A stretch of DNA of 35,180 bases, from contig JANWJD010000059.1 in NCBI GenBank assembly GCA_025449555.1, forward strand, positions 1 through 35,180, in the 5' to 3' direction. This DNA is from Chloroflexota bacterium (GTDB lineage: Bacteria; Chloroflexota; UBA5177). The notes beneath the pieces are model-generated. The model saw nothing but the letters and a program-made list of their open reading frames with translations. It made no database searches and was not told where the DNA came from. Both the position numbers and the translations under genes were made by a program. Every line of letters begins with the position of its first letter. The stretch's first letter is position 1. Below, piece by piece: positions 194 to 35,180 of the stretch.

Positions 194-267
194 TGGCTGG
201 GGCGGCAGGATTCGAACCTACGATCGCGGATCCAAAGTCCGCTGCCTTACCGCTTGGCCACGCCCCA
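194..267 (-). tRNA. tRNA-Gln (anticodon TTG), CCA encoded
   Basis: On the minus strand the sequence folds as a full cloverleaf. The 7-bp acceptor stem TGGGGCG/CGCCCCA has the U1-A72 pair typical of glutamine tRNAs. The anticodon stem GCGGA/TCCGC encloses the loop CTTTGGA (anticodon TTG), and the T arm contains GGTTCGAATCC. The discriminator is G and the 3' CCA is encoded (positions 196-194). It is 74 nt including CCA. A strong -35/-10 pair lies just upstream, and glmU follows 62 nt downstream. Confidence 0.96.
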
Positions 268-687: not shown

Positions 688-2094
688 ATGATGTTCACGG
701 GTGAGCGAACAATACCGCGTGTGGCTCGTTCTCGGCCCCGTATCTCTGTTCCCGCCCGTATAGTGTCGTGGGCCGTCGCCGCCGGCGTGTTCCTCCTGTC
801 CACGGTTCTTGTCGGATGCTCCAATGGGAGCGGGGCTTCCGCTCACACACTCCAGATCTGGTACAGCACGGATGATCCGGTTGAGCGGATATGGTCGCAG
901 CAGCTTGCTCGCCGGTTCGAGCACCTTCATCCGGGTGTGCACGTCAACCTGCGGGACTACTCCTTTGAAGATCTCAACACCAAACTGCAGCTCGCACTTT
1001 CGGCGGGCGATCCGCCGGACCTCGCCTATGTCACGCCGAGAGGTCCGGGCATTCCCGCGTACATCGGTGCCCACCAGCTCCGCGACCTGTCGGAGCCCGC
1101 GCGCACGCAGCATTGGGCGCAGAAACTGCGACCCGGGCTGCTTGCCGCATACAACGCACCTTTCCGATATTTCGGAGCGGCGCCGGGCAGCATCGTCGCT
1201 GTGCCGACCTCATTGGCAGCAGTCGGCATCCTCTACAATCAGCGCTTGCTCCATCGACTACACCTCAGCGTGCCCCATACTTTCGCTGCTTTCGAAACCG
1301 CACTGGCACGAGCGAAACAGGCAGGTTACACGCCAATCGGCATGGGAAACGCGGATGGCTGGCTCGGCGATGACTGGTACCTCACACTCGTAAACGCCTC
1401 GGTGCCAGGCTCGGTACTGGCGCCAGAGCAGCATCTGAGTAAAGCGTTTAACTTTCAGAGGGCACCGTTTGTAGCAGCCGCCGGCACACTCCAACGCTGG
1501 TCGAATCGTGGCTATTTCACGACGGACTTCGGCGGGATGGATGCACAGGAAGGAATCGATCTCTTTTTTCATGGCAAGACGCTCTTTCAGCTGATCTCGA
1601 GTTCTGAGAATTCTCAGATCGCTCAGGACCAGCAACGGACCGGGCTGCAGATTGGAGTCTTTTCGTTTCCACGTGCTCAGGGCGGTGGCGTTATGCCGTT
1701 GAGCGGCTATCTGGGATGGGTCGTACCGGCTGCCGCCAAGAATCCTACCGAGGCAATTTCCTTCATCGATACGCTGCTCTCACCACAAACTCCACAGCTA
1801 CTCGAACGGCACGGCGTGCTCCCGGCGCATGCATCTCACGCAGGAGAGGGAACCGGCTCGAGTGCCAACGCGACCTGGCAGCAGCAGTACCTCACGGCCC
1901 TGCATACGGCCCATCCCGGCGTCTACCTGGACGCCGCACCTGTCGCTAACCTCAATGCCACCATGGAGGCGAACGTGCAATTGCTCCTTCAGGGCTATGA
2001 AGCACCCGCGTTCCTGGTCAAGAGCCTGCAGGAGGTTTACACGTCGCATGGCAAGCACGGCGGAAGCCCCGCGCGCATCGACGGCGAGTACTGA
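688..2094 (+). CDS. Sugar ABC transporter substrate-binding lipoprotein
   Basis: This is a family 1 extracellular solute-binding protein (SBP_bac_1, CUT1 carbohydrate importers) that should capture oligosaccharides outside the membrane. The N-terminus has a basic region, a hydrophobic segment and the lipobox LVGC with the lipidated Cys at residue 44. The mature protein opens with a strand (TLQIWYSTDD), followed by the family pattern of a long helix and LSAGDPPDLAYVTP. Its length of 468 aa is normal. I chose ATG 688, with GGAAG about 10 nt upstream; ATG 691 is an alternative. The end overlaps the permease gene if that starts at 2048. Its neighbours (permease, anchored protein, secreted GH5) suggest that the ligand is a product of GH5 hydrolysis. 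The substrate cannot be read from sequence. Confidence 0.9.
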   Translation: MMFTGERTIPRVARSRPRISVPARIVSWAVAAGVFLLSTVLVGCSNGSGASAHTLQIWYSTDDPVERIWSQQLARRFEHLHPGVHVNLRDYSFEDLNTKLQLALSAGDPPDLAYVTPRGPGIPAYIGAHQLRDLSEPARTQHWAQKLRPGLLAAYNAPFRYFGAAPGSIVAVPTSLAAVGILYNQRLLHRLHLSVPHTFAAFETALARAKQAGYTPIGMGNADGWLGDDWYLTLVNASVPGSVLAPEQHLSKAFNFQRAPFVAAAGTLQRWSNRGYFTTDFGGMDAQEGIDLFFHGKTLFQLISSSENSQIAQDQQRTGLQIGVFSFPRAQGGGVMPLSGYLGWVVPAAAKNPTEAISFIDTLLSPQTPQLLERHGVLPAHASHAGEGTGSSANATWQQQYLTALHTAHPGVYLDAAPVANLNATMEANVQLLLQGYEAPAFLVKSLQEVYTSHGKHGGSPARIDGEY

Positions 2095-3877
2095 TCTGCG
2101 GGCCGATATCATCCCGTCCTCTCCGCATACAGTGCCGCCCACCCCCCAACCCCGGCGTCGAGCGCTCGACGCCGGCTTCTACCTCACTCCCGCGCTGCTC
2201 GTGTACAGCCTGTTTCTCCTGTGGCCACTCGTGCAGGTGGTCTGGCTTTCGTTTCACCAGTGGAACGGATACGGCCGCCAGATCTGGATTGGCAGTGAGA
2301 ACTTTACGACCTTACTGGCGGATCCGGTTTTCCGCACGACTCTGGGCCATAGCGGGCTGTGGGAACTGAGTGGGGCACTCGTCCCATCCGGATTGGGCCT
2401 CGCGCTGGCACTTGGCCTGCGGCGGGCCCACGTGCGCCACGGGGCGCTGATCGCGCTTTTCGTACCGGCGCTTCTGCCTGCCACGGTGATCGCCGCTCTC
2501 TGGGTCCTGGTATACTCCCCCCTCTCCGGCCTGCTCAACACGGGACTTCGCTGGTCGGGCCTGGGTGCATTGGCATCGGATTGGCTGGGCGATCCACATC
2601 TCGCGCTCGGCGCGCTCTTCGTCGCCTGGCTGTGGTCTGCCATCGGCGTGGGGACCGTCCTCTTCTGGAGCGCTCTGGGAGCGATCGACCAGGAGTATTA
2701 TTTGCTGGCACGGGCCGAGGGAGCAGGTCCGTTCTGGCGCTTCCGCCACGTCACTGTGCCCGGACTGTCTCGCATGGGCGGCGTGGCGTTAGTCGTGAAC
2801 GCGGCGTTGGCGGCGCAAGTGTTCGACCTGGTCTTCGTGACCACGGGTGGTGGACCCGGCTATGCCACCATGCTGCTACCGATCGACACATACGGACGAG
2901 CGTTCGGCGGTTTCACGGGTCAGGGCGCAGCCGCGGCCTGCTTTCAGGTCGCGTTTGGATTCGTCCTGGCGGGGGTCGCCTTGCTGATAAGTCGCACAGG
3001 CGCACCGCTTCAATTGGGTGAGCCGACCTCCGGCGCCGAAGGCCGAGCGCAGGGTCGAATCATGTGGAGCGCCGTGGTGTGGGGTGTGGTCGGCGTGCTT
3101 CTGTTGCCGGAACTCTGGTTGCTGATCGCGGCTGTCGAGCCCGGCCGGGACTTCGCGCTCTCCGGCGGGTGGCAGATCCCGGACCTTCAGTCGTGGACCG
3201 GTGGGAATTTCTCCGCCGCCTGGAATGCCGGTATGGGACAGGCCATGGTAACCAGCCTGCTGCTCGCGCTCGGTGTTCTGGCCGTCACACTCCTACTCTC
3301 CACGCCGGCGGCATTCGCCCTGGCCTATCTGGTTCGCGTGCCCGCCTGGCGCTTCGGCATCCTGGGCGTATTGATTCTTGGTCTGGTACAGCCCATGCCG
3401 GTGTTGATCATCCCGCTCTTCACGCTCTTGCATGATTTCGGCTTGCTCAATACGATCTGGGGCATCGCATTTCCAGAAATCGCGCAGGCGCTTCCCTTCG
3501 GCGTCCTGCTGCTCTGGGCGGCCTTTCGAGCCCAGCCGGTGGAGATCTTGCAGGCCGCGGAAGTCGATGGGGCGTCTCCGTTCCAGCGTCTGCTGCGCGT
3601 GGCGCTCCCGCTAGCGCGACCTACTATCGCCGCGGTTGCCATTTGGGCCTTTGTGTCGTCATGGAATCAGTACCTGCTGCCGACCGTCGTATCGCAGGAT
3701 GGCTCCCTCCAGACCGTTCCTACGCTGCTGGGAACCTTCCTGGGACGGTACAACACCGCGTACGGGCCTCTGGCGGCCGGCTCGGCGCTTGCAATCGTAC
3801 CCACGCTAGCGCTGGTCCTGGCGCTCCGGCTTCCAGCCGGCTTGGGACTGCAACGCGCGTTCAGGGCACCGCGGTGA
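2048..3877 (+). CDS. Fused MalF-MalG-type sugar ABC permease
   Basis: One continuous frame encodes both membrane subunits of a CUT1 sugar importer. The first half (about residues 45-320) is MalF/UgpA-like, with RPLVQVVW-type opening replaced by LLWPLVQVVWLSF and an EAA loop at residues ~216-235 (YYLLARAEGAGPF). The second half begins near Met339 (position 3062) and is MalG/UgpE-like, with an EAA loop from residue 499 (ILQAAEVDGASPF). Each half has about six membrane segments. The ~26-residue linker would be cytoplasmic, which suits the topology of both halves. I chose ATG 2048 because AGGAGG lies 12 nt upstream; GTG 2132 is an alternative start. The internal ATG at 3062 has a weak AGGG before it, so some separate MalG-like product is possible. 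Standard homologues are two ~280-310-aa proteins. No ATPase gene is adjacent. Confidence 0.88.
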   Translation: MASTAEAPRASTASTDLRADIIPSSPHTVPPTPQPRRRALDAGFYLTPALLVYSLFLLWPLVQVVWLSFHQWNGYGRQIWIGSENFTTLLADPVFRTTLGHSGLWELSGALVPSGLGLALALGLRRAHVRHGALIALFVPALLPATVIAALWVLVYSPLSGLLNTGLRWSGLGALASDWLGDPHLALGALFVAWLWSAIGVGTVLFWSALGAIDQEYYLLARAEGAGPFWRFRHVTVPGLSRMGGVALVVNAALAAQVFDLVFVTTGGGPGYATMLLPIDTYGRAFGGFTGQGAAAACFQVAFGFVLAGVALLISRTGAPLQLGEPTSGAEGRAQGRIMWSAVVWGVVGVLLLPELWLLIAAVEPGRDFALSGGWQIPDLQSWTGGNFSAAWNAGMGQAMVTSLLLALGVLAVTLLLSTPAAFALAYLVRVPAWRFGILGVLILGLVQPMPVLIIPLFTLLHDFGLLNTIWGIAFPEIAQALPFGVLLLWAAFRAQPVEILQAAEVDGASPFQRLLRVALPLARPTIAAVAIWAFVSSWNQYLLPTVVSQDGSLQTVPTLLGTFLGRYNTAYGPLAAGSALAIVPTLALVLALRLPAGLGLQRAFRAPR

Positions 3878-4749
3878 AGGGTATCCTGCCGGCACTGTTC
3901 GTGTCCGTCGTTCTGGCAGGCGCCACGCCGATGGTGACGCTGGGAGCTCCACGCGGCGCGGTGCCCCACTACACGCCGACCATCACCGGGGTGGTGTCGG
4001 GATTCCGCCTGGCCGGCCTCGAGCCGGATGGAGATCCACTCGATCAGGTAGTGTTGCAAACCGAACTGTCGCCGTCCGCCGGCCTGCCTCGATTGCATTT
4101 GGTGGTCGATTCGTATCTCGAGAACTTCAAGCCGGATACGACGCCGATCTTACCCGACCTGTTGAACCCCAAACAGACCGCTCAAAATTTGGGCGGCTTT
4201 CTGCAGGGAAAGGTGCTGCTAACCGACGATGCGGGTACTGTCCTGGCACTTGGGAGCTTCCTGGCCGAGGCATTCATCGGGAATTCGTCGAATCACGCGG
4301 TGATGAGGCTGTACGGCTCGGGCCGGGGATACGGAGGCAAAGGCGCGCTGAAAGGGAGCTTCACGTTGCACAAAGATGGAAGTCTGGTGGGAGCACTCCG
4401 GGGAACACTGACCCTTCCTGCCGCTGCGCTTAACCAGATTCGCCGGCGTACCGACCCGCCGGTACACAGGTTCGGATCGGCGTTACTGAAGAGGATTATT
4501 TCCACAGTATCCGTGCAACCGGCTCCCATGATGGGCAGGGCTTCCACCGGCACCAAAGGAGCACCGTTACATACCAGCTTCGGTACACCGACGGCGACCA
4601 AACAGGTGGCACCGCAGCCTGCAAGTGGCACCAGCGGTCGGCACATTTCACCGTGGACGGTCGCTGCGCTCCTGGGGGCTGCCGTGTCATTCATCGCCGC
4701 CGCCATTCTGTGGTGGAAGGGGCGCGCGCAACCGCAGACAGCGGGTTAA
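3874..4749 (+). CDS. Secreted, C-terminally membrane-anchored protein of unknown function
   Basis: I do not recognise the family. The 291-aa product has an N-terminal signal sequence (hydrophobic residues ~4-24, likely cleavage after TLGA). A ~180-residue domain follows, rich in predicted strands, with a glycine-rich stretch GSGRGYGGKGALKGSF and a strand ending ALRGTLTLP. Next come a Ser/Thr/Pro-rich stalk (about 215-258) and a C-terminal transmembrane helix ending WWKGR, so the domain should sit outside the cell. The alternating glycine/strand pattern is reminiscent of dirigent/allene-oxide-cyclase barrels, but that is only an impression. GTG 3874 overlaps the permease stop as GTGA, with AGGG upstream, so translation is probably coupled to the fused permease. 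The context suggests a surface accessory to glycan capture or GH5 action. Confidence 0.75.
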   Translation: MKGILPALFVSVVLAGATPMVTLGAPRGAVPHYTPTITGVVSGFRLAGLEPDGDPLDQVVLQTELSPSAGLPRLHLVVDSYLENFKPDTTPILPDLLNPKQTAQNLGGFLQGKVLLTDDAGTVLALGSFLAEAFIGNSSNHAVMRLYGSGRGYGGKGALKGSFTLHKDGSLVGALRGTLTLPAAALNQIRRRTDPPVHRFGSALLKRIISTVSVQPAPMMGRASTGTKGAPLHTSFGTPTATKQVAPQPASGTSGRHISPWTVAALLGAAVSFIAAAILWWKGRAQPQTAG

Positions 4750-4806: not shown

Positions 4807-7194
4807 ATGTCAGTAGTGCGTTTGTCGATACTTCACTCACTTCGCGCGGTTCTCTCTCGCTGCAGGTTCGCCGTCGCCGTCATGCTTATACTCGCCGTCA
4901 CCATGAGCGCCACGGTGGGTCAGGCTCATCTCATGGTTGCGGCGACCCCGCCGACCGGTCTGCCGCAGCCCCGATCCCTCGCGATTCCACTGCACGTATT
5001 CCCGCGTGGAGCCGCGGTTCACGGCGCTCCTGCCTCGAATGAGCAAGCCGCCACGGCCACCGGCCTGCACACGCTCTCGCTTGCACAGTTGGGGCGCGTC
5101 GAAGGCTACGCCCAAACGGCCCGCTGGAATCTGCCGGCGCAGCAGCGACACGTTTATCCAGCGTCGCTCCAGTACGAGGCCTCGATCTTTGCAACCCCCG
5201 GTGATGCGACGGACGCCACGACCGATGCTCAGGCCTCGCTCTGGGAAACAGGTAAACCGATCCGTGTGACCGGGATCCCCGTCCCGGTGTTCTCGCTCCA
5301 GAGCCGAGGCGGCTTCACGTCAATTGCCGTCGCCTCGACGTCCGGATCCATCGAGTCCGAGTTAGTACTGCGGTACAGTGATCGCGTGACCGGGGCAGTC
5401 GAACAATCGAGTCTGCGGCAGCTTGCACACCTCTGGATCGCCGCGAACGCGGTGGAAGCACGTCTCGCCCTTCCCAGTCCGGCAGCACCACCGACGGTTC
5501 GGCCGACCCCGAACGTATTCCTGGCGCCGAACGGCACCGGGCCGGTCATCAAGAGCCCATCGCTCATGGTGCTCGATCCATCACTCCTCGGCGATGCTTC
5601 AACTCAACTGCATGGCGGGGCCTTTCGGCCGTCCAGTCCGCCGGCAATTGCAGCCAGTTCCCATCCCTCGACGGCCGTGATCTCGCTCGGCTCCCTATCC
5701 CGTTATGTCGAATTAGCCGAGGTAGGGAGTCGAGATGACCTCTACGATTCAGCCTCGTTGTTCACGAGTGCTGCCGAGGCACGCGCCGCCTACGACAACT
5801 TGGTGCGCTCCAATGCGACATTGCGGCTGAGCGCACTTCCTCTCGGAGTCAGCCCCACCAGCCTCCAGCGTCTGACCTCCGCCGATGCGGTTCGTGCCTG
5901 GCAACTGGGGCATGAAACCGTACTGGTCGCCCTGTGGCAAAACGTGGTGATCGTCCTCGCACTTCGTGGCCCGGATCCGGGTTCACTGCCGTCGACGGCC
6001 GATCTGCTCCTTTCCACCGTGCCCTCCTGGCTCCACGCCGCGGGGACGCAGATGGTGGACGCAACCAATACCCCGGTGCACCTCACAGGGTTGAACTGGT
6101 ACGGCGCGGAACAGCAGGATTTTGTGGTGGGCGGCCTCGATTACGAGCCGTATCAAGCAATTCTCTGGACCATCAAACGTGCGGGCTGCAACACCATCCG
6201 TCTCCCATTCTCGGATCAGTTGGTGGAACAGAATCCGGTTGTTACGGCACACGTGGGGGCGAATCCCGAGCTAGCGGGGCTACACGCGCTGGATGTGTTC
6301 GACCGCATCGTGGCCTATGCCGGCGCGATCGGCCTCTCGGTCATCCTGGACAACCATCGCTCCGACGCGGGTTGGAGCTCCGAGGAAAACGGCCTCTGGT
6401 ACACACCCGCCTATCCCGAGAGCGCCTTCGACCGTGATTGGACCACGATGGCACAGCGGTACGCGGGTAACACTGTCGTGATCGCAGCCGACCTCCGAAA
6501 CGAGCCGCATGGCGCCGCACGGTGGGCCAACGGTGATCCCTCGACCGACTGGAAAGCGGCAGCCGAGCGCGCGGGTAATACCGTGCTCGCATCCAATCCA
6601 CAGCTTCTGATCATGGTAGAGGGGGTGCAGTACTCCGGGACAGCGCCCAGCTACTGGTGGGGTGGGAACCTGATGGGTGTGGCAACTGCACCCGTTTCGC
6701 TGCAATTTGCGGATGGTTCGTCGGCCCGAAGTCAGCTCGTGTACTCAACGCACGACTACGGGGTGGACAATTGCAGCACCGGTTGCCCCTGGTTCAATTC
6801 GACCACCAGCTATGCAAGCCTGGCGGCGACCTGGGACCAGTATTGGGGATATATCACGGCGGATGCCTCGCGTCCGTACGCTGCTCCCGTCTGGGTCGGC
6901 GAGTTTGGAACCTGCAATTACAACGTGGGTTGCGTGTCGGATTCGATCCCTGGATCGCAAGGACAGTGGTTTCAAAGTCTCGTCCAATACATCGGCAGTA
7001 AGCACCTGGGCTGGGCGTACTGGTCGGCCAATGCCACGCAATCGACCGGGGGAACTCGCACCTATGGAACGCTGGATTGGTACGGATTCTTCCAGCCGAA
7101 TTGGACGGCCCCGGTCCCGTGGCTCACAGAAGCCCTGCGGACCATTCAGACCGACACCGGTGTGTCCGGACCACCATCGGGAGGGGCCGGATAG
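4807..7194 (+). CDS. Secreted glycoside hydrolase family 5 enzyme with novel N-terminal region
   Basis: This is a 795-aa extracellular glycosidase. The C-terminal domain (about 413-785) is a GH5-type TIM barrel. It opens with HLTGLNWYG, carries a conserved NTIRLPFSD strand and VILDNHRSD, has the acid/base Glu566 in LRNEPHG and the nucleophile Glu699 in VWVGEFGTC. GH5 enzymes are retaining endo-beta-glycanases (cellulase, mannanase and others); the exact substrate is not readable. A signal segment covers residues ~18-45. Residues ~85-410 are not a known carbohydrate-binding module that I recognise. They look like two diverged copies of one alpha/beta unit, split by a Pro-rich linker near 220-245. 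The start lies 57 nt after the upstream gene, with no strong ribosome-binding site. Its place behind a sugar importer suggests that released oligosaccharides are taken up by it. Confidence 0.9.
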   Translation: MSVVRLSILHSLRAVLSRCRFAVAVMLILAVTMSATVGQAHLMVAATPPTGLPQPRSLAIPLHVFPRGAAVHGAPASNEQAATATGLHTLSLAQLGRVEGYAQTARWNLPAQQRHVYPASLQYEASIFATPGDATDATTDAQASLWETGKPIRVTGIPVPVFSLQSRGGFTSIAVASTSGSIESELVLRYSDRVTGAVEQSSLRQLAHLWIAANAVEARLALPSPAAPPTVRPTPNVFLAPNGTGPVIKSPSLMVLDPSLLGDASTQLHGGAFRPSSPPAIAASSHPSTAVISLGSLSRYVELAEVGSRDDLYDSASLFTSAAEARAAYDNLVRSNATLRLSALPLGVSPTSLQRLTSADAVRAWQLGHETVLVALWQNVVIVLALRGPDPGSLPSTADLLLSTVPSWLHAAGTQMVDATNTPVHLTGLNWYGAEQQDFVVGGLDYEPYQAILWTIKRAGCNTIRLPFSDQLVEQNPVVTAHVGANPELAGLHALDVFDRIVAYAGAIGLSVILDNHRSDAGWSSEENGLWYTPAYPESAFDRDWTTMAQRYAGNTVVIAADLRNEPHGAARWANGDPSTDWKAAAERAGNTVLASNPQLLIMVEGVQYSGTAPSYWWGGNLMGVATAPVSLQFADGSSARSQLVYSTHDYGVDNCSTGCPWFNSTTSYASLAATWDQYWGYITADASRPYAAPVWVGEFGTCNYNVGCVSDSIPGSQGQWFQSLVQYIGSKHLGWAYWSANATQSTGGTRTYGTLDWYGFFQPNWTAPVPWLTEALRTIQTDTGVSGPPSGGAG

Positions 7195-7372: not shown

Positions 7373-8974
7373 TTGGCCGACGCTGCTGCAGTCCCAAACT
7401 CGACCGAGCATAAGCTTCGTCGAGCGGTTGGCCCCTGGGGGTCGTACACCTGGGGCTACGCCGACGTGGGGGCGGATATCTATGTCGCGCTGGGGTTGGT
7501 CATCGCCACGGCGGCGGGGGCGTCAAACATCGCCTTCCTCTTCGCCGGAATCATCTACGCCACGATCGGATTGGCATACACCGAGCTCTCGGCCATGTAC
7601 CCCCTATCCGGCGGCGGCCAGATGTGGGTGACACGCGGACTGGGAGATATCTTCGGCTTCACGGCCGGATGGTCGGTCCTGCTCGCCTTCACGGTCGATA
7701 TCGCGCTTTTCGCCTACATCTCCGTCAGTTATCTCAACCGACTCCTGCCGGGGCCGGTCAATCACCTTCCCTGGATCATTCTCGAAGCAATTGTGCTGGT
7801 CATCTTGCTCTTGATTTTGAACACGATCGGCGTTCGCGAGTCGTCGAAACTCAATGAGATCGCCGGAGCCGTGGACATTCTGGCCGAGAGCACCCTGATC
7901 TTCATCGGTTTCCTGTTTGCCTTCAATCCCGCGTTCTACTGGCACCAGACGTCTGGATTCTTCATGCACTTCGAACCGTCACGACTCTTACTCGGCACAT
8001 CGTTGGCGATCATCTCATTCGTCGGTCTCGAGTCGATCTCACAGGCTGCCCAGGAGACGGAACGCCCCACCACGGTCATCCCCCGTACATCGGTGGCACT
8101 CATTCTCACCATCCTGGCCTACGCCATATCGCTCAGCAACCTTGCCCTGGGAATCCTTCCCTGGCAGAGTTACGATCCAAGCTCGACGGGCGCCAAATTC
8201 TGCGGACACCTGACAGCCAGCGCCTGCAGCGAGCTCCATACGCAGCACGAAAACGCGCCCATGATCTGGTTGGCGCAGCACCTTCCCACGATCGGTCCAT
8301 TTCTCGCGCCGGTTATCGCCGTCCTCGGTACGACCCTCCTGCTCATTTCCTCCAATTCAGGGGTCTACGGCTCGAGCCGGATCGTGTACTCGATGGCCTC
8401 CCATGACCTCATGCCCAAGTTTTTCGAATACATTGAGCCACGCTTTCAGACACCGTTGGTGGCGCTGGTCGTGTTCTGCGCCATCGCCATCTGCGAATTG
8501 ATCGCGGCCGGATTCACGCCCAACGCCCTCCAATCGCTGGCAGAGATGTACGCCTTCAGCGCAGCCGTCAATTACTTGCTGGTCTTTGTGGCTCTGCTGC
8601 GTCTCCGCTTCACCGATACTGAAACACCGCGGACCTTCCGCGTCCCCTGGAACGTGCCCATTCGACGCCCCAGTGGCACCTACGAGGTGACGATCGTGGG
8701 CGTCATCGGCATGCTGCTCCTGTTCGCCGTGCTGATCATGGTCGTCTTGACCAACGAGATCGGCCGGGTCGCGGGACCGCTCTGGGTGATCGCCGGTCTG
8801 ATCTTCTTTTCCATCTACCGTCGCTATCGCGGGCTTCCCATTCTCAAATCGGTCCCCCGCAATTACTCTGTCGAGCAACTAGCAGTGTATCGAGAGTCCG
8901 GTGAAGGCGGACTGGCCGACGAGTATCAAGCCGCGCTGCGACGAAAAGAGCGGATCCAGCGTCCAAAAGAATAA
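7373..8974 (+). CDS. APC-superfamily amino acid permease
   Basis: This is a 533-aa polytopic protein with about 12 membrane helices. It shows the APC-family features: a glycine-rich first helix region (GYADVGADIYVALG), a second segment IGLAYTELSAMYPLSGGGQ, and the conserved SFVGLESISQAAQETERP around the middle. It should import amino acids or related amines by proton or solute coupling; the substrate is unknown. The start codon is TTG at 7373, supported by the purine-rich stretch AGGAGAGGG ending 3 nt before it and by the absence of a good ATG further in. A GTG at 7369 is out of frame. The C-terminus is cytoplasmic, charged and ~50 residues long. It stands alone and ends 10 nt from the convergent MFS gene. 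Confidence 0.88.
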   Translation: MADAAAVPNSTEHKLRRAVGPWGSYTWGYADVGADIYVALGLVIATAAGASNIAFLFAGIIYATIGLAYTELSAMYPLSGGGQMWVTRGLGDIFGFTAGWSVLLAFTVDIALFAYISVSYLNRLLPGPVNHLPWIILEAIVLVILLLILNTIGVRESSKLNEIAGAVDILAESTLIFIGFLFAFNPAFYWHQTSGFFMHFEPSRLLLGTSLAIISFVGLESISQAAQETERPTTVIPRTSVALILTILAYAISLSNLALGILPWQSYDPSSTGAKFCGHLTASACSELHTQHENAPMIWLAQHLPTIGPFLAPVIAVLGTTLLLISSNSGVYGSSRIVYSMASHDLMPKFFEYIEPRFQTPLVALVVFCAIAICELIAAGFTPNALQSLAEMYAFSAAVNYLLVFVALLRLRFTDTETPRTFRVPWNVPIRRPSGTYEVTIVGVIGMLLLFAVLIMVVLTNEIGRVAGPLWVIAGLIFFSIYRRYRGLPILKSVPRNYSVEQLAVYRESGEGGLADEYQAALRRKERIQRPKE

Positions 8975-18713: not shown

Positions 18714-19475
18714 ATGGGGAAACCATCTTTCAAGCAGCGCATTCGATCCGGCTCGCCGGCCCTCGGCACGCTTGTAACCGTCGGCTCCCCGGCTGTGGTA
18801 GAGGCGCTCTCCATGACGGGTCTCGACTGGCTGTTCATCGACCTGGAGCACGGATCCCTCGGCCTCGAGACGGCGGAAGATCTGGTGCGAGCGGTGCGCG
18901 GTGACTGCTACACGCTGGTCCGCATCCCCGAGAACACGCCGATCTGGATTCACAAGGCACTGGACATCGGTTGCGACGGGCTGATCGTGCCGATGGTGTG
19001 CTCTGAAGCCGAGGCACGGCGAGCGGTCGAACACGCGCGGTACCCACCAGTCGGCGTGCGGAGCGTCGGCGTAGCACGGGCGCATGGCTATGGGCTGGAG
19101 TTTGCGGCGTACGTGGCGAACGCGAACGAGCAGCTCACGGTGATCATTCAGATCGAGCACATTATTGCCGTGCGAAGCCTGGCCGGCATCCTGGACGTGA
19201 CTGGGATCGACGCCGTCCTGATCGGGCCGTACGATCTTTCCGGCAGCATGAATGTGTTGGGGCAAGTGAACCATCCTGCCGTGCAGGAAGCCATGACGGC
19301 GATTCGTGCCGCCTGTACGGAACGAGGTATGCCATTTGGCCTCTTCGTGCTCGATCCTGCCAGTGTACCGGCGGCGCTCGCCTCTGGGGTCAGCTTTCTC
19401 GCTGTGGGTACGGAGCTTTCCCTGCTGTTCGGCAGCGTGCAGTCGGTGCTCGACACGGCCCGTACGATTTCATAG
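18714..19475 (+). CDS. HpcH/HpaI family aldolase
   Basis: This is a 253-aa class II pyruvate aldolase of the HpcH/HpaI family (4-hydroxy-2-oxoheptanedioate or 2-keto-3-deoxy-sugar-acid type). Such enzymes split 4-hydroxy-2-oxo acids into pyruvate and an aldehyde, using a divalent metal. Visible family markers are His46 in FIDLEHG, Arg70 in LVRIPE, metal ligands Glu148 (IIQIEH) and Asp174 (IGPYDLSGSM), and the VGVRSVG loop. ATG 18714 is preceded by GGGAG at a suitable distance; the frame upstream to 18474 runs through the terminator and is not used. It stands alone between a terminator and a convergent DinB gene, so its pathway is not shown. The sugar-acid operon at 27558-35029 is a possible functional partner. 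Confidence 0.9.
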   Translation: MGKPSFKQRIRSGSPALGTLVTVGSPAVVEALSMTGLDWLFIDLEHGSLGLETAEDLVRAVRGDCYTLVRIPENTPIWIHKALDIGCDGLIVPMVCSEAEARRAVEHARYPPVGVRSVGVARAHGYGLEFAAYVANANEQLTVIIQIEHIIAVRSLAGILDVTGIDAVLIGPYDLSGSMNVLGQVNHPAVQEAMTAIRAACTERGMPFGLFVLDPASVPAALASGVSFLAVGTELSLLFGSVQSVLDTARTIS

Positions 19476-19490
19476 CAATGTCGTGGCCGA

Positions 19491-19510
19491 GCCGGCGACC
19501 GAGCGCCGGC
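19491..19510. terminator. Hairpin between convergent aldolase and DinB genes
   Basis: GCCGGCG (19491-19497) and CGCCGGC (19504-19510) form a perfect 7-bp stem with a 6-nt loop in the 65-bp convergent gap. A second small dyad CATCGT/ACGATG follows at 19514-19529. They may act together as a bidirectional terminator, but there is no T-run. Confidence 0.45.
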
Positions 19511-19540
19511 CCACATCGTCATTACGATGACGAGGCGGGC

Positions 19541-20050
19541 TCAATCCCCGGTCGCTCCATCGATGGACTGTCGGAGCAAATCGGCGTGACCGTTGTGCCG
19601 CGCGTAGTCCTCGATCATATGGACCACGATCCACCGCACCGAGACCGAGTCCCCCACGCGTTGCCTGGCGGCGAAATCGTCGAGGGACGGAATGCCGGCA
19701 AGTACCTCCCGTGCGATGTCACACTCGCGACGCCAGGTCGCTAATGCCTCGTTCGGATCTGCATCGTCCACATTATCGAAGTCACCATCGCGATCAGCCT
19801 CCGTGTAGTACAGCGGGGGAGCATCCCGTCCCGCGATGGTGCGCTGAAACCAGCTTCGTTCGACTTCCGCCATATGTCGAATCAAGCCTAAAAGGGAAAG
19901 CGTCGACGGCTGAACGGCGCGTCTTCGCAACTGTTCGGCAGAAAGTCCGTCGCATTTGAAAGCCAGCGTACCTCGGTGAAATTCGAGCCATGACTCGAGC
20001 ATGGCTCGCTCCGCGGCACTGAAGGGTGGATTGATGCGAGTGTCAGTCAC
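19541..20050 (-). CDS. DinB/DUF664-family protein
   Basis: This is a 169-aa member of the DinB four-helix-bundle superfamily, DUF664 branch. Relatives are metal-dependent thiol transferases such as mycothiol- or bacillithiol-linked enzymes, although most have no assigned substrate. The candidate metal ligands are visible: His59 in LIRHMAEVERSWF, and His152 and His155 in ARHNGHADLLR. Family members typically begin TDTRINPPFSAAERAMLE, so I chose the GTG at 20050; an ATG at 20104 would add 18 residues with no family support. The gene is monocistronic, divergent from the GntR operon and convergent with the aldolase. Confidence 0.87.
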   Translation of the reverse strand: MTDTRINPPFSAAERAMLESWLEFHRGTLAFKCDGLSAEQLRRRAVQPSTLSLLGLIRHMAEVERSWFQRTIAGRDAPPLYYTEADRDGDFDNVDDADPNEALATWRRECDIAREVLAGIPSLDDFAARQRVGDSVSVRWIVVHMIEDYARHNGHADLLRQSIDGATGD

Positions 20051-20159
20051 GAGCCATGCACCATCCCGGTTTGAATTGGCTCTCCAGTCTATAACCACAT
20101 GCAAGTCCTGTGTCCTTCAGCACGCTCACCCAAACCGTGGATGCACGCCGGAATGGTGG

Positions 20160-20188
20160 TTGACAAAGAGTGTCCCGAGCGATAGACT
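20160..20188 (+). promoter_or_regulatory. Promoter of ytrA-like ABC operon
   Basis: A consensus -35 TTGACA (20160-20165) is followed after 17 nt by TAGACT (20183-20188, 4/6 to TATAAT). Transcription would start near 20195, inside the left arm of the adjacent palindrome. This is the clearest sigma-70-type promoter in the window after the tRNA promoter. Confidence 0.75.
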
Positions 20189-20224
20189 TTATCTATCTTC
20201 CTAGAACTATAGGAGCATAGATAA
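20189..20224. promoter_or_regulatory. 36-bp operator palindrome for YtrA-like repressor
   Basis: The left arm TTATCTATCTTCCTA (20189-20203) and the reverse complement of the right arm, TTATCTATGCTCCTA (20210-20224), match at 13 of 15 positions around a 6-bp centre. The palindrome abuts the -10, covers the predicted +1 and includes the AGGAG ribosome-binding site (20211-20215) of the GntR gene. That placement fits autorepression by the encoded regulator. Confidence 0.75.
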
Positions 20225-20227
20225 GAC

Positions 20228-20620
20228 ATGATTACCTTCCGCCTCGATACTCGCTCGGGCCTTGCCCCCTACCTACAACTGGTGCAGCAGGTAAAACATG
20301 CGCTCCGTCTCGGCATGCTGGAAGTCGGGGACCAGCTCCCGACCATCAAACAGATCGTGGCGGAGCTGGCAATCAATCCCAATACAGTCCTGAAAGCCTA
20401 CCGTGAGTTGGAGCATGAAGGGCTCATCGAGAGCCGGCCCGGTCAGGGCACGTTCGTGCTCAAGACGCTGGCGGGTGCGTCGCTGCAGAGTCAAGCGGGG
20501 CTGCGTCGCTCCCTGCTGCTCTGGCTGCAGGAGGCTCAACAGGCTGGACTGGAGGAGGAGAGTATCCAGGCCCTCTTTCTGGATACTCTCCGTGAGTCCT
20601 TGAGGCGGGGTGTGGCATGA
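20228..20620 (+). CDS. YtrA-subfamily GntR transcriptional regulator
   Basis: This is a 130-aa regulator with an N-terminal winged helix (about 10-75; PYLQLVQQVKHALRLG, GDQLPTIKQIVAELAINPNTVLKAYRELE, GLIESRPGQGTFV) and a short helical C-terminal tail. The tail is too small for a ligand domain, which defines the YtrA group. Such proteins usually repress their own operon of ABC transporter genes and respond to envelope or antibiotic stress. ATG 20228 is 12 nt after AGGAG. The gene overlaps the ATPase start by 4 nt. The palindrome at 20189-20224 is the likely binding site. Confidence 0.93.
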   Translation: MITFRLDTRSGLAPYLQLVQQVKHALRLGMLEVGDQLPTIKQIVAELAINPNTVLKAYRELEHEGLIESRPGQGTFVLKTLAGASLQSQAGLRRSLLLWLQEAQQAGLEEESIQALFLDTLRESLRRGVA

Positions 20621-23717: not shown

Positions 23718-26702
23718 TCATTCCGATCGGGTGGCCGTTACCAGGTCGGCGGGCGGCGTCTCCACCGTCAACGCATGCGTCACCGCCTGCTCCAGGCCCA
23801 TGGCCCGCCCCTTGCTTCGCATCGCTTCGAACCCGGCTTCTCCCAGTGCGGTTTTTGCCGCACCAACATGGGCACGGTACCACCGCTCATTCGCGGGCGG
23901 TACCGGAGAATCCATCATCTCTCGAAGCGCGTCCGCGGCGCCAAACAGCATGGCGGCGCGCTCCATGTGTCCGAGCGCCGCATAGCAGCCCGCGAGGGCC
24001 TCGAACGTCATTGCAAGGATCCAGGGTATGCCATCACTTCCATCGCGCCGGAGCGATTCCGACAACGCCTCACGCGCACGTTGATGGTCCGACTGTTCGA
24101 GTGCGGCGACGCCGATACTCGTCAGAACTTCGGCAATGCCGTGCCTGTCCCCGATCTTCTGCACAAGGTGCAGGCTCTCCTCGAGGAGCAACGTCGCTCG
24201 GTCATACTCACCCTGCATCGACGCCGCGCGTCCCAGGTTGTTGAGCGCGAACGCCTCGTGAAACGGCTTTCTCAGCGCCCGAAACAGTGCGATACTTTCT
24301 TCGGCAAAGCGGACAGTACGCGCAACGTCTCCCCGGTCTCGCGCCACGTCACTCAGACCGATACTTGCTATGGCAGCGCCGTTCGAATCGCTGAACTCGC
24401 GGAATATAGCCAGGCTCTCCTCATACAACTCCACCGCTCGGTCGTAGTCACCCAGCATTCTGGATACCTGGGCAACCCCGCACAGCGCGTGAGCGGCCCA
24501 CCGTTGCTCGCCCTCCGCCAGACTTTGGGAGACGCTTTCTTCCCAGACCTTCTTAGCCAGAGACAGATTCCCGGATTCCTGGAAGATGTACGCCAATCGG
24601 GTGAGACAACCCCGGATATCTGAATTCCAGGGCGATTGGCGAAGCAAGAACAGGCTCTCCTGGAATAACTGGATAGCTCGGCCCGTCTCGCCCGCATAAT
24701 GCGCAACATAGCCGATTTCAGCCAGCACATTTGCCGTTCCTGTCATATCTCCCAACGTCCGGAAGAGGGCGAGACTTTCCTCGGCGAGCGCCTCCACCCG
24801 TTCGACGTTATTTCGCCGGGCTTCTGCCCAAACGAGGTCATAGAGGCACCTGGCCAAGTCGGCCGGACTCGCCGATTGGCGTGCCAGCTCGAGTCTTTCC
24901 TCATACAGTGGCACCGCGAGATCGGTCTCACCCAGAGCGAAATACGACTTCCCTAGCCATCCGAGAGTTTCGATGGTCCCCCCGTCATCTCCGAGCGCGC
25001 GGTACAGCGTCAGGCTCTCTTCGAGCAACTGGATGGATAACCGATGGTCCCAGGCGAAAAAAGTAAAGCGGCCGATAACGCGAAGGGCACGTGCCCGCAG
25101 TGCCGGCGCCGAAGACTCAGTTCCAAGGGCGGCGAGATGATCTTCGAGCAACTTTCGCCCCTCGGTGATACGAGCACTCGCGATCCAGAACCGTTCCAGA
25201 GCCACGGATAAACGCAATCCAACCACGGACTGGCCGCTGTGGGTCGTCCACGCCAGAGCCGCTCTCAAGTTATCAAGATCCTCCTCCAACCGGTTCAGCA
25301 GCGGCAAATGATCCGCCTCCGTCTCCTGACCGTCCAGCTCTTCAGCGACCGTCAGGTAGTACGAGACATGGCGATCCCGGTATGCTTTCGTCTCTCCGCG
25401 CTCGTCCAATTGTTCGGAAGCATAATCGCGGACGATCTCCAGCATGCGAAAACGCGGCTCATCGGCTCCGTCCATCCAGAGCAAGCTCTGCTCTGCCAGC
25501 CGCATCACCAGAGCGAGTAAATCCATCTCTCGGGCGGGGTCGCACACTGCCTCGATTGCTTCGAAACTACAGCCGCCGACAAAGACGGAAAGTCGGGCGA
25601 CCAACGTCCGTTCCGCTTCATCCAGCAGGGAATAACGCCAATCCATGGTGTTGCGAAGCGTCTGCTGCCTGGCCGGTCGATCCTTCGCTCCGCTCGTCAG
25701 CACATGCATTGGGTTGGAGAGGCGCGTGAGCAGAGCTCGAGGCGAGAAGATTCGAACGCGGGCGGCGGCCAACTCCAGAGCAAGGGGCAGGCCGTCCAGG
25801 CGGTAGCAAATATCGGCAATTGCCGCGGCGTTCTCTCTGGTGAGCCGAAAGCCGGGCTCTACCGCCTCGGCACGTTGCACAAAGAGCTGGACCGCGTCGT
25901 AACGGCCCAGGGCATCAATGCTCGACCCATGCTGTGGAGCAGGAACGGGGAGCGGCGAGAGCGGATACTCGTGCTCAGCTGAAAGGTGTAATACTTCTCG
26001 ACTGGTAGCGAGAATTTTCACCGGCGGACAATCGACCAGGAGCGCGGCCACCACGTCCGCGCCGGCCAGCAGATGCTCGAAGTTGTCCAGAACGAGCAGG
26101 CGCCGCTTTCCACGGAGATGCTCGTGCAGGCAGGCGAGGATAGACTGTCCGCTTATTGCCTTGACACCCAGGGAAGTGGCGATCGCGGAGGGAATCGTGA
26201 GGGGATCGATCACGGAGGCGAGAGCCACAAAGAAGACCCCGTCGGGAAAGGTGTCGGATATCTCGCCGGCTACCTGGAGGCCGAGTCGCGTCTTGCCGGT
26301 CCCGCCCGCGCCAGTGAGCGTGAGGAGTTGTACATCATCCCGTTCCAACAGTTGAGAGACATCCCGCACCTCACGCTGCCGGCCGATAAACGGCGTCGGT
26401 TGGATCGGGAGATTTGTGCCTCCACTGGGATGATCTCCGGGCTCCTGCCCCTCTGCCTCGCTCGCTCTCGCCTGGCGCGCAGCGACCGCAAGCTGGGACG
26501 ATGCCTGTTCACCCAGCGCCAGAGCGTGCGCCAACCGCCGGACGGTAAAAGCATGGGGACGGTGATTGACGCCTCGTTCCAGATCGCTGATCGTCCTGAC
26601 GCTGAGCGTCGTTTGCTCGGCCAGCTCCTCCTGTGTTAACCCGGCAGCTGTTCGATACTGCCGAAGCAACACGGCAAACGTTCCCGGCGAAGACTTTGTC
26701 AT
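23718..26702 (-). CDS. XRE-HTH / NB-ARC ATPase / TPR regulator (994 aa)
   Basis: This is a multidomain STAND-type protein. Residues ~8-70 form an XRE/Cro helix-turn-helix (LRQYRTAAGLTQEELAEQ, VRTISDLERG). Residues ~105-360 form an NB-ARC ATPase with P-loop GAGGTGKT (131-138), Walker B RRLLVLDNFEHL and a GLPLALELAA helix. About ten TPR-like repeats (roughly 520-960) follow, each ending in an EESLxLFR-type helix. Such proteins act as ligand-sensing ATP switches that bind DNA once assembled. I place the start at ATG 26702, just before the HTH. ATG 26735 (MDSGDQDD) or GTG 26711 are possible, and the ribosome-binding-site evidence (GGAGG at 2 nt) is poor. It is followed by the M24 gene and is divergent from a 76-aa gene. 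Confidence 0.9.
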   Translation of the reverse strand: MTKSSPGTFAVLLRQYRTAAGLTQEELAEQTTLSVRTISDLERGVNHRPHAFTVRRLAHALALGEQASSQLAVAARQARASEAEGQEPGDHPSGGTNLPIQPTPFIGRQREVRDVSQLLERDDVQLLTLTGAGGTGKTRLGLQVAGEISDTFPDGVFFVALASVIDPLTIPSAIATSLGVKAISGQSILACLHEHLRGKRRLLVLDNFEHLLAGADVVAALLVDCPPVKILATSREVLHLSAEHEYPLSPLPVPAPQHGSSIDALGRYDAVQLFVQRAEAVEPGFRLTRENAAAIADICYRLDGLPLALELAAARVRIFSPRALLTRLSNPMHVLTSGAKDRPARQQTLRNTMDWRYSLLDEAERTLVARLSVFVGGCSFEAIEAVCDPAREMDLLALVMRLAEQSLLWMDGADEPRFRMLEIVRDYASEQLDERGETKAYRDRHVSYYLTVAEELDGQETEADHLPLLNRLEEDLDNLRAALAWTTHSGQSVVGLRLSVALERFWIASARITEGRKLLEDHLAALGTESSAPALRARALRVIGRFTFFAWDHRLSIQLLEESLTLYRALGDDGGTIETLGWLGKSYFALGETDLAVPLYEERLELARQSASPADLARCLYDLVWAEARRNNVERVEALAEESLALFRTLGDMTGTANVLAEIGYVAHYAGETGRAIQLFQESLFLLRQSPWNSDIRGCLTRLAYIFQESGNLSLAKKVWEESVSQSLAEGEQRWAAHALCGVAQVSRMLGDYDRAVELYEESLAIFREFSDSNGAAIASIGLSDVARDRGDVARTVRFAEESIALFRALRKPFHEAFALNNLGRAASMQGEYDRATLLLEESLHLVQKIGDRHGIAEVLTSIGVAALEQSDHQRAREALSESLRRDGSDGIPWILAMTFEALAGCYAALGHMERAAMLFGAADALREMMDSPVPPANERWYRAHVGAAKTALGEAGFEAMRSKGRAMGLEQAVTHALTVETPPADLVTATRSE

Positions 26703-27008
26703 GGCCTCCACATCATCCTGGTCTCCCGAATCCATAAACAACCGTCTCAACCCTGGCGTGCAGTTTACCACCATCAGTGCCAAGGTGCGAGCAAATTCTG
26801 TGGGAAGACTGTGGGTCCACTGCATGGTGCATGCCCGTCCCGTGGGGCACACTGAACACCAGGCAAGCGGTTGAGAGACAAGCTGTGATGGGAGCCCACC
26901 CCCAATCACCCTTCCGGAAAAATCCACCGCTTCGCTGAGTACTCAGACTCATCAAGTGCGCAGGAAAGACGAGCTCAACCCGCCATCGGACGAAATCAGG
27001 AGACGGCC
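26703..27008. other. 306-bp divergent intergenic region
   Basis: The region lies between the XRE regulator (minus) and a small gene (plus). It has a perfect 12-bp palindrome at 26935-26946 and a shorter dyad GCATG/CATGC at 26822-26834. I could not assign -35/-10 elements for either direction. An upstream extension of the XRE frame to 26927 is open but has no domain or ribosome-binding-site support. Confidence 0.55.
26935..26946. promoter_or_regulatory. 12-bp perfect palindrome, candidate operator
   Basis: CTGAGTACTCAG is its own reverse complement. It lies 62 bp before the small gene at 27009 and ~230 bp from the XRE regulator start. It could be a binding site for the XRE protein; no second copy was noticed nearby. 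Confidence 0.45.
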
Positions 27009-30564: not shown

Positions 30565-31482
30565 TCAGCTCATGTATTGACGCAGGAAGCCCGCCGCCTG
30601 GCGCAAGGCACGCTTGCGATCGCGCAGACTGCCTTCATACGGGCGATCTTCCGCCTCGATACAGACCGGACCCGTATACCCGACATCGGTCAGGGCGGCA
30701 AAGAACGCTCCCCACCGCACATCCCCCAGGCCGGGCAGCTTGGGCGTGTGATAGTCAAGCGGAACGGCCAGGATCCCGACTTCATCCAGCTTGAGGCGAT
30801 CGAGTCGGGCATCCTTGGCGTGGACGTGATGCAGGCGCGAGGCGAACTCCGCGATGGGGGCAACCTCGTCCATCTGCTGCCAGATGAGATGAGAGGGATC
30901 GTAGTTGAGACCAAAGTGCGGATCGGGAATCTCGGCGAACATGCGGCGCCACACCGCCGGACTGATCGCCAGATTCTTGCCGCCGGGCCACTCATCCTGG
31001 GAGAAAAACATGGGGCAGTTTTCGATACCCAGGTTGATATCGCGCTCCGCGGCATAGCGCACCAATGGTGGCCACACTTCCTGGAACAGCGGCCAGTTCG
31101 CGTCGATCGACTTCCACTGATCTCGCCCCACGAAGGTGTTGACAGTCGAGAGACCAAGCAGGACCGCCGCGTCCATCAGCCGCCGCAGATGCTCCAGGTA
31201 CACGGCGCGCTCAGCGGCATCCGGCGTCAGTGGGTTCGGGTAGTAGCCGAGCGCTGAGATTCGGACTCCGGTGGTTGCGCAGCGCTCATTGATAGCTCGG
31301 GCCTCCGCTTGGCCCAGACTCGCCACATCGATATGGGTTGTGCCCGCGTACCGGCGCGCGTCGCCACTCCCGGTCGGCCAGGACATGACCTCGACACACT
31401 CGAACCCTTCCTCGGCGGCAAAGTCGAGGACCTCATCAAAGGAAAGATCTTCCAGAATCGCGCTGACAAAACCAAGTTGCAT
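30565..31482 (-). CDS. TIM-barrel sugar (phosphate) isomerase/epimerase
   Basis: This is a 305-aa protein of the xylose-isomerase-like TIM-barrel superfamily (COG1082 type; relatives IolE, IolI and tagatose epimerase). Likely metal ligands are Glu154 (GIENCP), Asp195 (NYDPSH, with His198), His221 (HVHAKDA) and Glu276 (IEAEDR). This E-D-H-E set is typical of active members. It probably interconverts keto sugars or dehydrates a keto-inositol. It lies 39 nt downstream of the second permease gene and directly before the dehydrogenase gene. Confidence 0.92.
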
Positions 31483-31521
31483 GCTTTCACCTCGATGAGA
31501 CGACTGGAGCCGTGGCTCGAA

Positions 31522-32526
31522 TTAGGTGTTACCGGCCAACCGGGCATAGGCCCAGGCCAGCAAGAGAATCAACAAGCCATAGAGCATCTGGCGCACTGCC
31601 TCGGTGGCATTGATGACGGTCAGGAATGCGTCCAGCACAGTAAGAATCAACGCGCCGAAGATGGTTCCGGCGTAGCCGCCACTTCCACCAAAGACGGACG
31701 TCCCGCCAATTACCGCTGCCGCCACGGTCAGCAGGAGATAGCTGGAGGCGAGCTGCAAATCGACCGCATTATTGTTTCCTCCCAGGATCATGCCGGCAAC
31801 CGCGCTCAGTCCTCCCGAAATGACGTAGGTGACGATCAAGACCTGCCAGGAGCGCACTCCCGCCAGGCGACACGCCACGGGGTTATCTCCGATCGCAATG
31901 ATGGCGCGCCCCAACCCGCTGTACTTGAGTCCCAGGATGAGGATGACGGAGAGCGGCAGCCACACCAGGAGCACGTCGAGCGGGATGTATCGGAAGACGG
32001 TACGAGTGCCCAACTCGTACATGACCTGCGGAACGACCGGGGCGCCATTGGTCTCGGCCTGGCTGTAGACGATCAACATACCGCCGAGGATGGCGCCGAT
32101 GCCAAGGGTCATGATGAGCGGCTGGACCCCAAAGACACCGACACCGATGCCGTTGACGAGGCCGGCCACTAACCCAACGGCCAGGCCGATCAGGATGGCC
32201 GCGAAAGCGCCATGCACGTTGTTCTGAGCCATCAAATACGCGGCGGCGGAGGCGACACTCGCTACGGACAGATCCACCCCAGCGGTGAGGAGCACGAGCG
32301 TCTGGCCACCGGCCATGATTCCCAGGATAGCCGCCACTTGCACGGTCGACGACACGGAGTGAAGGGAGCGGTACCCGGGGCTGATGATAGACAGGATGAC
32401 AAAGAGTATGACGAGGATGGCAGCCAGAGCATAGAGTGGTTGATCCGAGAGGCGCCGTTGGAACTCGGCGATGCGGCCTGGCCCTGCCTCGACCGTGGGA
32501 GACGATGCGGGCGCGGTTGCACTCAT
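31522..32526 (-). CDS. RbsC-like sugar ABC permease (second copy)
   Basis: This is a 334-aa BPD_transp_2 permease with about 8-10 helices. It has the CUT2 hallmarks GGQTLVLLTAGVDLSVAS, the GLVNGIGVG and FGVQPLIMTLG segment, a cytoplasmic coupling loop IGDNPVACRLAGV, and GGTSVFGGSGGYAGT. It should form a heterodimeric channel with the preceding, different permease. ATG 32526 overlaps that gene's stop as ATGA. Confidence 0.93.
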   Translation of the reverse strand: MSATAPASSPTVEAGPGRIAEFQRRLSDQPLYALAAILVILFVILSIISPGYRSLHSVSSTVQVAAILGIMAGGQTLVLLTAGVDLSVASVASAAAYLMAQNNVHGAFAAILIGLAVGLVAGLVNGIGVGVFGVQPLIMTLGIGAILGGMLIVYSQAETNGAPVVPQVMYELGTRTVFRYIPLDVLLVWLPLSVILILGLKYSGLGRAIIAIGDNPVACRLAGVRSWQVLIVTYVISGGLSAVAGMILGGNNNAVDLQLASSYLLLTVAAAVIGGTSVFGGSGGYAGTIFGALILTVLDAFLTVINATEAVRQMLYGLLILLLAWAYARLAGNT

Positions 32527-33524
32527 TTGCGCCTCCTGAGGGCGAGGACCCCGGCAAAGAGCACGACCAGTACGACGATTGCTCCCTGGATAACCGTGGC
32601 ATAGTTGGGATCGACTCGCAGGAATCCCAGAATGGCCCGGATGATATTCAGGACAAAAGCAGCCGCGATCGGTCCCAGCAGGCCACCGCGCCCCCCAGCC
32701 AGACTCACGCCGCCCAGAACCACACAGGCCACGCTGTTGAGGGTGAAGCTGGATGCGCTATTCGGATCGCCCTGGCTGGTTTCTGCCAGCAATGCGATCC
32801 CGGCCATGCCGACGAAGAGCCCTCCCAGCGCATAGGCCGCGATGCGGGTACGAGCGACATTGACCCCGCTCAGAAACGCTGCCATACGATCACTTCCCAG
32901 CGCATAAACCGAGAGGCCGAGTCGGGAGCGATACCAGGGTAGCCACACGACCAGCACGATGCAAGCCAAAACGAAGACCCCCTCGGGCAACCAGCCCCAC
33001 AGTTCTCCGTTCACGAGATTGGCGAAATCGAAAGGGATTCCTCCGCCGGGCGTGGGGAGGACATACAACGCCAACCCGTACCACACGAAGCTGGTGGCCA
33101 GTGTGACGATGATATCCGGTACGCGCGAAATGGTGATGACAAATCCGGTTAAGGCGCCCAGCGCCGCCGTTCCCAGAATGATGACAATCGAATCAAATGT
33201 TGCCTGTTTGGCGTCGGCGTTGACCATCCAGCGCGCGGCTACCACGTTTACCAGCGCCATCATGGTCCCTATGGAAAGGTCGATTCCTCCCACCAGCACG
33301 ACGGAGGCCTGCGCCATGGCCGCCAGAGCCAGCGGCAGGGTCTCGATCACTAGAGTTTGGATATCGAAGGCATTGAGACCGGGATGGACGAGCTTTTCGA
33401 TCACGAAGAGGACGATCAAGATGGCATAAATCGACAGGCCCCACGCGTTGCGGCGCACAAAGCGGCGACGCACTGCGATTGAGATAAAGGGCGTGGCCGA
33501 TGGGGTTGCGCTGATCGAACTCAC
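32523..33524 (-). CDS. RbsC-like sugar ABC permease (first copy)
   Basis: This is a 333-aa CUT2 permease. The family pattern is clear: QASVVLVGGIDLSIGTMMAL, a coupling loop ALGSDRMAAFLSGV, and VVLGGVSLAGGRGG. It differs markedly from the second permease, so the two probably form a hetero-pair, as in YtfT/YjfF-type systems, rather than a homodimer. The GTG start at 33524 overlaps the ATPase stop as GTGA; the longer frame to 33644 lies inside the ATPase gene. The substrate is a sugar or polyol of unknown identity. Confidence 0.92.
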   Translation of the reverse strand: MSSISATPSATPFISIAVRRRFVRRNAWGLSIYAILIVLFVIEKLVHPGLNAFDIQTLVIETLPLALAAMAQASVVLVGGIDLSIGTMMALVNVVAARWMVNADAKQATFDSIVIILGTAALGALTGFVITISRVPDIIVTLATSFVWYGLALYVLPTPGGGIPFDFANLVNGELWGWLPEGVFVLACIVLVVWLPWYRSRLGLSVYALGSDRMAAFLSGVNVARTRIAAYALGGLFVGMAGIALLAETSQGDPNSASSFTLNSVACVVLGGVSLAGGRGGLLGPIAAAFVLNIIRAILGFLRVDPNYATVIQGAIVVLVVLFAGVLALRRRK

Positions 33525-35029: not shown

Positions 35030-35062
35030 GCGATCAATGTTCCCTCTGTGTCCAGAGACCGT

Positions 35063-35180
35063 GCGGTGGGGGGGCCCCGGCGGCCCCCCCCCCCCCTGAA
35101 GCGAGCGCAATAACCCGTGCCGGCGAAGAGCCGCGGGGGGGGGGGGTCGGGCGCGCGGCGGGGGGGGCTACAGTGGTGGG
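35063..35180. other. Homopolymer-rich contig end, low-trust sequence
   Basis: Runs of G or C crowd the last 120 bases: G7 at 35068-35074, C13 at 35084-35096, G12 at 35135-35146 and G8 at 35160-35167. Base composition is unlike the rest of the window. This looks like sequencing or assembly noise at a contig end rather than a biological element. Confidence 0.7.

Follow-up and report, generated by a model that had tools for sequence, protein, structure and literature searches.

The stretch of DNA analysed here (the window, 35,180 nucleotides of a Chloroflexota genome) contains a long open reading frame that seems to hold both membrane subunits of a sugar importer, and the question is whether the MalF- and MalG-type halves of a CUT1 channel have genuinely been fused into one protein and how such a protein would work. 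The frame runs without interruption from 2048 to 3877 on the + strand and encodes 609 aa, in which Pfam finds PF00528 (BPD_transp_1) twice, at 68.1 bits against a curated cut-off of 26.4; a search of the genome itself likewise placed both stretches in a single open frame. Its features are as follows.

2031 to 2035, + strand: likely ribosome-binding site (GGAGG), 12 nt 5' of the ATG at 2048, inside the end of the binding-protein gene
2048 to 3877, + strand: fused permease of CUT1 type, a single 609-aa chain with two BPD_transp_1 domains (open reading frame, Pfam, relatives, AlphaFold2 model)
2156 to 2995, + strand: first half, MalF/UgpA/SugA-type, residues ~37-316, six helices (NCBIfam UgpA model, PDB SugA 7cad_A, Foldseek)
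2690 to 2767, + strand: EAA-loop region of the first half, residues ~215-240, coupling helix 215-223 (alignment, AlphaFold2 model)
2996 to 3046, + strand: linker, residues ~317-333, ~17 aa, without predicted structure (pLDDT ~53-77), cytoplasmic by topology
3047 to 3865, + strand: second half, MalG/UgpE/SugB-type, residues ~334-606, six helices (NCBIfam GlcU/UgpE models, PDB SugB 8ja7_B, Foldseek)
3062 to 3064, + strand: internal ATG (Met339), a candidate second start in the original prediction; not conserved
3539 to 3622, + strand: EAA-loop region of the second half, residues ~498-525, coupling helix 498-506 (alignment, AlphaFold2 model)

A Kyte-Doolittle scan of the permease gave 12 hydrophobic peaks, six in each half (residues 49-314 and 342-593), and the two EAA helices of the predicted model confirm the original reading of one uninterrupted frame with EAA loops near residues 216 and 499 and about 12 helices. 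The split had been placed near Met339, and the domain boundary lies at ~317-333; because there are six helices per half, topology puts the linker on the side of the EAA loops, supporting the cytoplasmic position proposed for it. The second EAA loop fits the consensus well and the first only partially (LLARAEGAG versus the CUT1 consensus YEAAxIDGA). Third-position GC amounts to 0.76 in the first half and 0.77 in the second. Among NCBIfam models the first half scored best with UgpA/GlcT/MalF and the second with GlcU/UgpE/MalG, but every score lay far under its equivalog cut-off, so the permease cannot be given a named subfamily. A search of the PDB matched the first half to SugA and the second to SugB of the mycobacterial LpqY-SugABC trehalose importer. 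Scans for promoters and terminators yielded no signal beyond that of shuffled sequence.

The comparison within the order covered six genomes from two families, namely the window genome (G000) and G001-G005, five of them in family f1 and G005 in a second family, f2. With BPD_transp_1 above its cut-off and an EAA helix in each half, the protein qualifies as a type I ABC importer permease. It also has the MalF-like and MalG-like half-channels that define CUT1 systems, and their cognate sugar-binding protein is present as an SBP_bac_1 lipoprotein directly 5' in all six genomes; two separate permease proteins, a usual though not strictly defining CUT1 trait, are absent, the permease being a single chain in six of six. 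We are highly confident that the transmembrane core of a CUT1-like type I ABC importer is encoded by this gene as a single chain, built from a MalF/SugA-type half, a cytoplasmic linker and a MalG/SugB-type half, a reading whose computed support is one frame, two domains, two EAA helices, an order-wide fusion and a confident single-chain fold; the fused chain is known here from genes and a predicted model.

The genes that surround the permease form a conserved unit of sugar-binding lipoprotein, fused permease, ORF3 and, in one family, a GH5 endoglucanase.

688 to 2094, + strand: sugar-binding lipoprotein, SBP_bac_1, 468 aa, lipobox LVGC (Pfam PF01547, E 6.7e-29), partner of the permease
3874 to 4749, + strand: ORF3, secreted protein with a C-terminal membrane helix, whose GTG start overlaps the permease stop (GTGA); no match in Pfam or NCBIfam
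4807 to 7194, + strand: secreted GH5 endoglucanase, E1/Cel5-like (PF00150, E 1.2e-41; PDB endocellulase E1, E 1.5e-73)

The permease ATG at 2048 overlaps the binding-protein gene by 47 bp, a layout shared with the G002 orthologue, and an orthologue of the binding protein (51-65% identity) lies directly 5' of the fused permease in each of G001-G005. In the working that we propose, helices 1-6 would take the MalF/SugA role and the last six the MalG/SugB role, joined by the short flexible cytoplasmic linker, and one subunit of a homodimeric MalK-type ATPase would dock on each EAA loop. The upstream lipoprotein would deliver an oligosaccharide, probably freed by the adjacent endoglucanase, and transport would follow the usual alternating-access cycle; we expect no departure from the standard mechanism, only the packaging being unusual.

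Both the substrate and the ATPase assigned to the permease are putative, being drawn from gene neighbourhood and family. It is quite possible that the cargo is not a plant-type oligosaccharide (but, for example, a glycerophosphodiester or a disaccharide) and that the endoglucanase is there by coincidence, a reading that would change the cargo and nothing else. The best family models, GlcU/UgpA/UgpE, lean that way, the binding protein is just distantly related to oligosaccharide binders, and in G005 the endoglucanase is not next to the unit, so that the cello-oligosaccharide idea rests on one family. Against this, the endoglucanase follows the operon in every family f1 locus that reaches that far, and the PDB entries nearest to the binding protein are xylo- and chito-oligosaccharide binding proteins. 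An oligosaccharide cargo is the reading that we retain, tentatively.

Several other features of these loci were recorded. Each of the five family f1 genomes has a tRNA-Gln(ttg) gene 5' of the transport unit (window 194-267, - strand; L031:6675-6748, L032:12-85, L033:6512-6585 and L034:11498-11571), and the amino acid permease that lies downstream (window 7373-8974, + strand) is conserved at this place in G003 as well (L031:14496-16121). Farther along the window, positions 23718-26927 (- strand) encode a 1069-aa regulator with HTH, NB-ARC-like ATPase and TPR parts, of the large AfsR/MalT-like kind, and positions 30565-35110 (- strand) hold the cluster of a CUT2-type importer. It comprises an RbsA-like double ATPase, a xylose-isomerase-like protein and two BPD_transp_2 permeases, which are separate genes whose ends overlap; dehydrogenases come next.

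The permease operon contains no ATPase gene, and the motor is thus probably a stand-alone MalK homologue encoded elsewhere in the genome.

G000:C157 about 19242 to 20360, - strand: stand-alone MalK-type ATPase, candidate shared motor
L156:7243 to 8361: stand-alone MalK-type ATPase

The protein in G000 (372 aa, with ABC_tran, OB_MalK and TOBE_2) lies away from permease genes, and its counterpart in G005 is likewise stand-alone, with no permease genes beside it. It is also a candidate motor for the many sugar importers of this genome that lack an ATPase. By analogy, it probably serves the fused permease and would most likely be shared among importers in the manner of MsmX in Bacillus. That MsmX is an ATPase common to several sugar importers is established (PMC7658222).

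The original prediction had also left room for a separate MalG-like product, made from an internal ATG with a weak AGGG upstream and coexisting with the fused form. Both the ATG, at 3062, and the AGGG exist in the window genome, but the product itself finds no support: in none of the other five relatives is there an ATG at the position of Met339; across residues 314-345 three of them lack any start codon, and the remaining two contain just an isolated GTG or TTG, at another place in that stretch. Since Met339 occurs in the window genome only, a conserved second product is unlikely, and we regard the coexistence of both forms as very improbable. The single fused chain that we favour may still be processed after translation.

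The predicted structure bears on whether this chain would be sufficient by itself. AlphaFold2 was given an alignment of 32 relatives, fused and split, in which the stop codons of the split relatives were read through, which helps to define how the domains pair. The resulting single-chain model is confident (pLDDT 88.5, pTM 0.87); its EAA helices span 215-223 and 498-506, and the linker, at ~317-333, is poorly ordered. Searched with Foldseek, the halves matched SugA, SugB, MalF and MalG chains (LpqY-SugABC, MalFG), and the whole chain matched the single-chain FbpB of a Thermus ferric importer (TMq 0.60 over 565 columns). Some single-domain permeases pair with themselves, but that two copies of the fused protein pair up, or that it works with a further partner permease, and not as a self-sufficient pair of half-channels, is scarcely credible, given that its halves differ in type, MalF-like then MalG-like, and that the model matches both the SugAB/MalFG half-channels and FbpB as a whole.

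Is the fused frame itself real? The permease is in one frame, with no stop at the junction, in all six genomes of the order. The relatives, which represent five other genera, are 52, 49, 48, 57 and 41% identical to the window permease (by search), with similar identity in both halves and lower identity in most linkers, whose length differs by several residues. Five of the six genes are full length, and that of G002 runs off its contig after residue ~388, past the junction. The possibility that two normal genes only look fused because an assembly or base-calling error deleted the stop or frameshift between them is practically negligible, for although the window genome is a draft (293 contigs, 84% complete) and split relatives frequently differ by a single in-frame stop, the same fused frame recurs, seen independently in five other genomes (five genera, two families) at 41-57% identity, with diverged linkers and no stop. 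The fusion is thus genuine and conserved in one uncultured Chloroflexota order, as the original prediction had held; the search that it called for, for a fused form conserved in a clade with the same neighbours, was positive across the order, and the worry that homologues might always be split at this point is answered by the five fused relatives.

Beyond the order the picture changes. The sole genome available from another order of the same class (G006) had no permease orthologue, and in a scan of 400 genomes of the phylum, in which the three best candidates per genome were scored, all full-length matches listed outside the order have a stop at the junction. A single-protein search of a collection of genome contigs gave no match, and an alignment search of the same collection recovered two long-linker fusions besides CUT1 pairs of the ordinary sort, none of them from this order. 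These long-linker permeases form a second fused CUT1 family, found in G029, an Anaerolineae MAG and a Verrucomicrobia MAG.

L140:5857 to 7845: long-linker fused CUT1 permease
L149:2012 to 3967: long-linker fused CUT1 permease
L038:369 to 2339: long-linker fused CUT1 permease
L173 to L184: further long-linker fused CUT1 permeases

They share the order of the halves and the single frame with the window permease, but fall in a separate clade and have linkers ~75 aa longer, which carry hydrophobic or amphipathic stretches. With a long-linker query, fused relatives appeared at E < 1e-150 in 19 of the 400 Chloroflexota genomes, and more at lower similarity. While it holds that CUT1 importers normally use two permeases, the rarity that this had implied was overstated, as both this second family and the single-chain FbpB show. 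Other candidate fusions among long open frames proved on inspection to be separate genes (G023, G006, G014, G034, G042, G027, G021, G053, G054, G046, G019, G051, G029:C17 and G005:C30), and only G029:C585 (L038) was truly fused. Fused permeases are also known among ThiP- and PhnU2-type importers. Our literature search, in which subscription journals were thinly covered, returned no account of a fused MalF-MalG-type permease.

The two fused groups lie in separate clades of the trees, and well-supported branches force two changes. A single origin of all fused forms appeared in 0 of 200 bootstrap trees, yet it withstands the AU tests (p 0.113 and 0.065), which leaves two origins favoured, not proven; the long-linker family is, from its sequences, probably a separate fusion. 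In many split relatives the permease genes are in the same frame, with the second start within a few codons of the stop; losing one stop would suffice to yield a linker much like the present one, and the fusion probably arose in this way, from two adjacent in-frame genes, in an ancestor of the order. Fusion would guarantee equal amounts and pairing of the halves, although two adjacent coupled genes nearly do so anyway.

Set against known systems, each half matches one subunit of LpqY-SugABC (PDB 7cad, 8ja7) in order, sequence and fold, but SugA and SugB are two separate proteins, whereas the window permease is one chain. LpqY-SugABC also has its own ATPase, SugC, which the window operon lacks, and differs in its binding protein and probably in its substrate. 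MalF and MalG of E. coli MalFGK2 have the same transmembrane-domain fold and EAA coupling helices, again as two chains, and MalF possesses an additional region at its N-terminus and a large loop in the periplasm, both absent from the window permease. FbpB of the ferric-ion importer FbpBC (PDB 9j4r) is, like the window permease, one chain with two type I half-channels and is the best full-length structural match, but is only 16% identical and not sugar-type. More generally, FbpB/ThiP/PhnU2-type permeases belong to iron, phosphonate and thiamine importers; the window permease shares their two half-channels in one chain, and the PhnU2 NCBIfam model matches both its halves weakly, but its closest sequences are sugar permeases and not iron or thiamine permeases. 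Given that fused channels of this general kind exist elsewhere, we regard the present one as a modest variation and not as a new machine.

The remaining member of the unit is less familiar. In all five complete loci, the permease stop and the ORF3 start have four bases in common, which read GTGA in G005 and the window and ATGA in G001, G003 and G004; the N-terminus of ORF3 resembles a signal peptide. Among the 400 genomes of the phylum ORF3 is restricted to this order, save for one weak match in G083 that is not beside permease genes, and it was not found in genomes with long-linker fused permeases. An AlphaFold2 model of low confidence (pLDDT 56.6) has eight strands and a weak resemblance to the AbyU/PyrI4 and allene oxide cyclase barrels, just a lead; a PDB search gave nothing at E <= 0.001. 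It is conceivable, if rather unlikely, that the permease and ORF3, an extracytoplasmic, possibly barrel-like protein with a membrane helix and coupled translation, make up a new kind of sugar importer, in which ORF3 would act as a dedicated accessory bound to the membrane, capturing oligosaccharides or passing them on alongside the binding protein.

The permease offers a natural single-chain channel of a sugar importer, in which each half could be mutated or labelled separately within a fixed 1:1 pair, and such fusions probably arose at least twice within one phylum and then persisted. The most novel part of the unit is the co-conserved ORF3. Order-specific and invariably coupled to the permease, it stands as a concrete candidate for an importer accessory that has gone unrecognised, and is the feature worth following.
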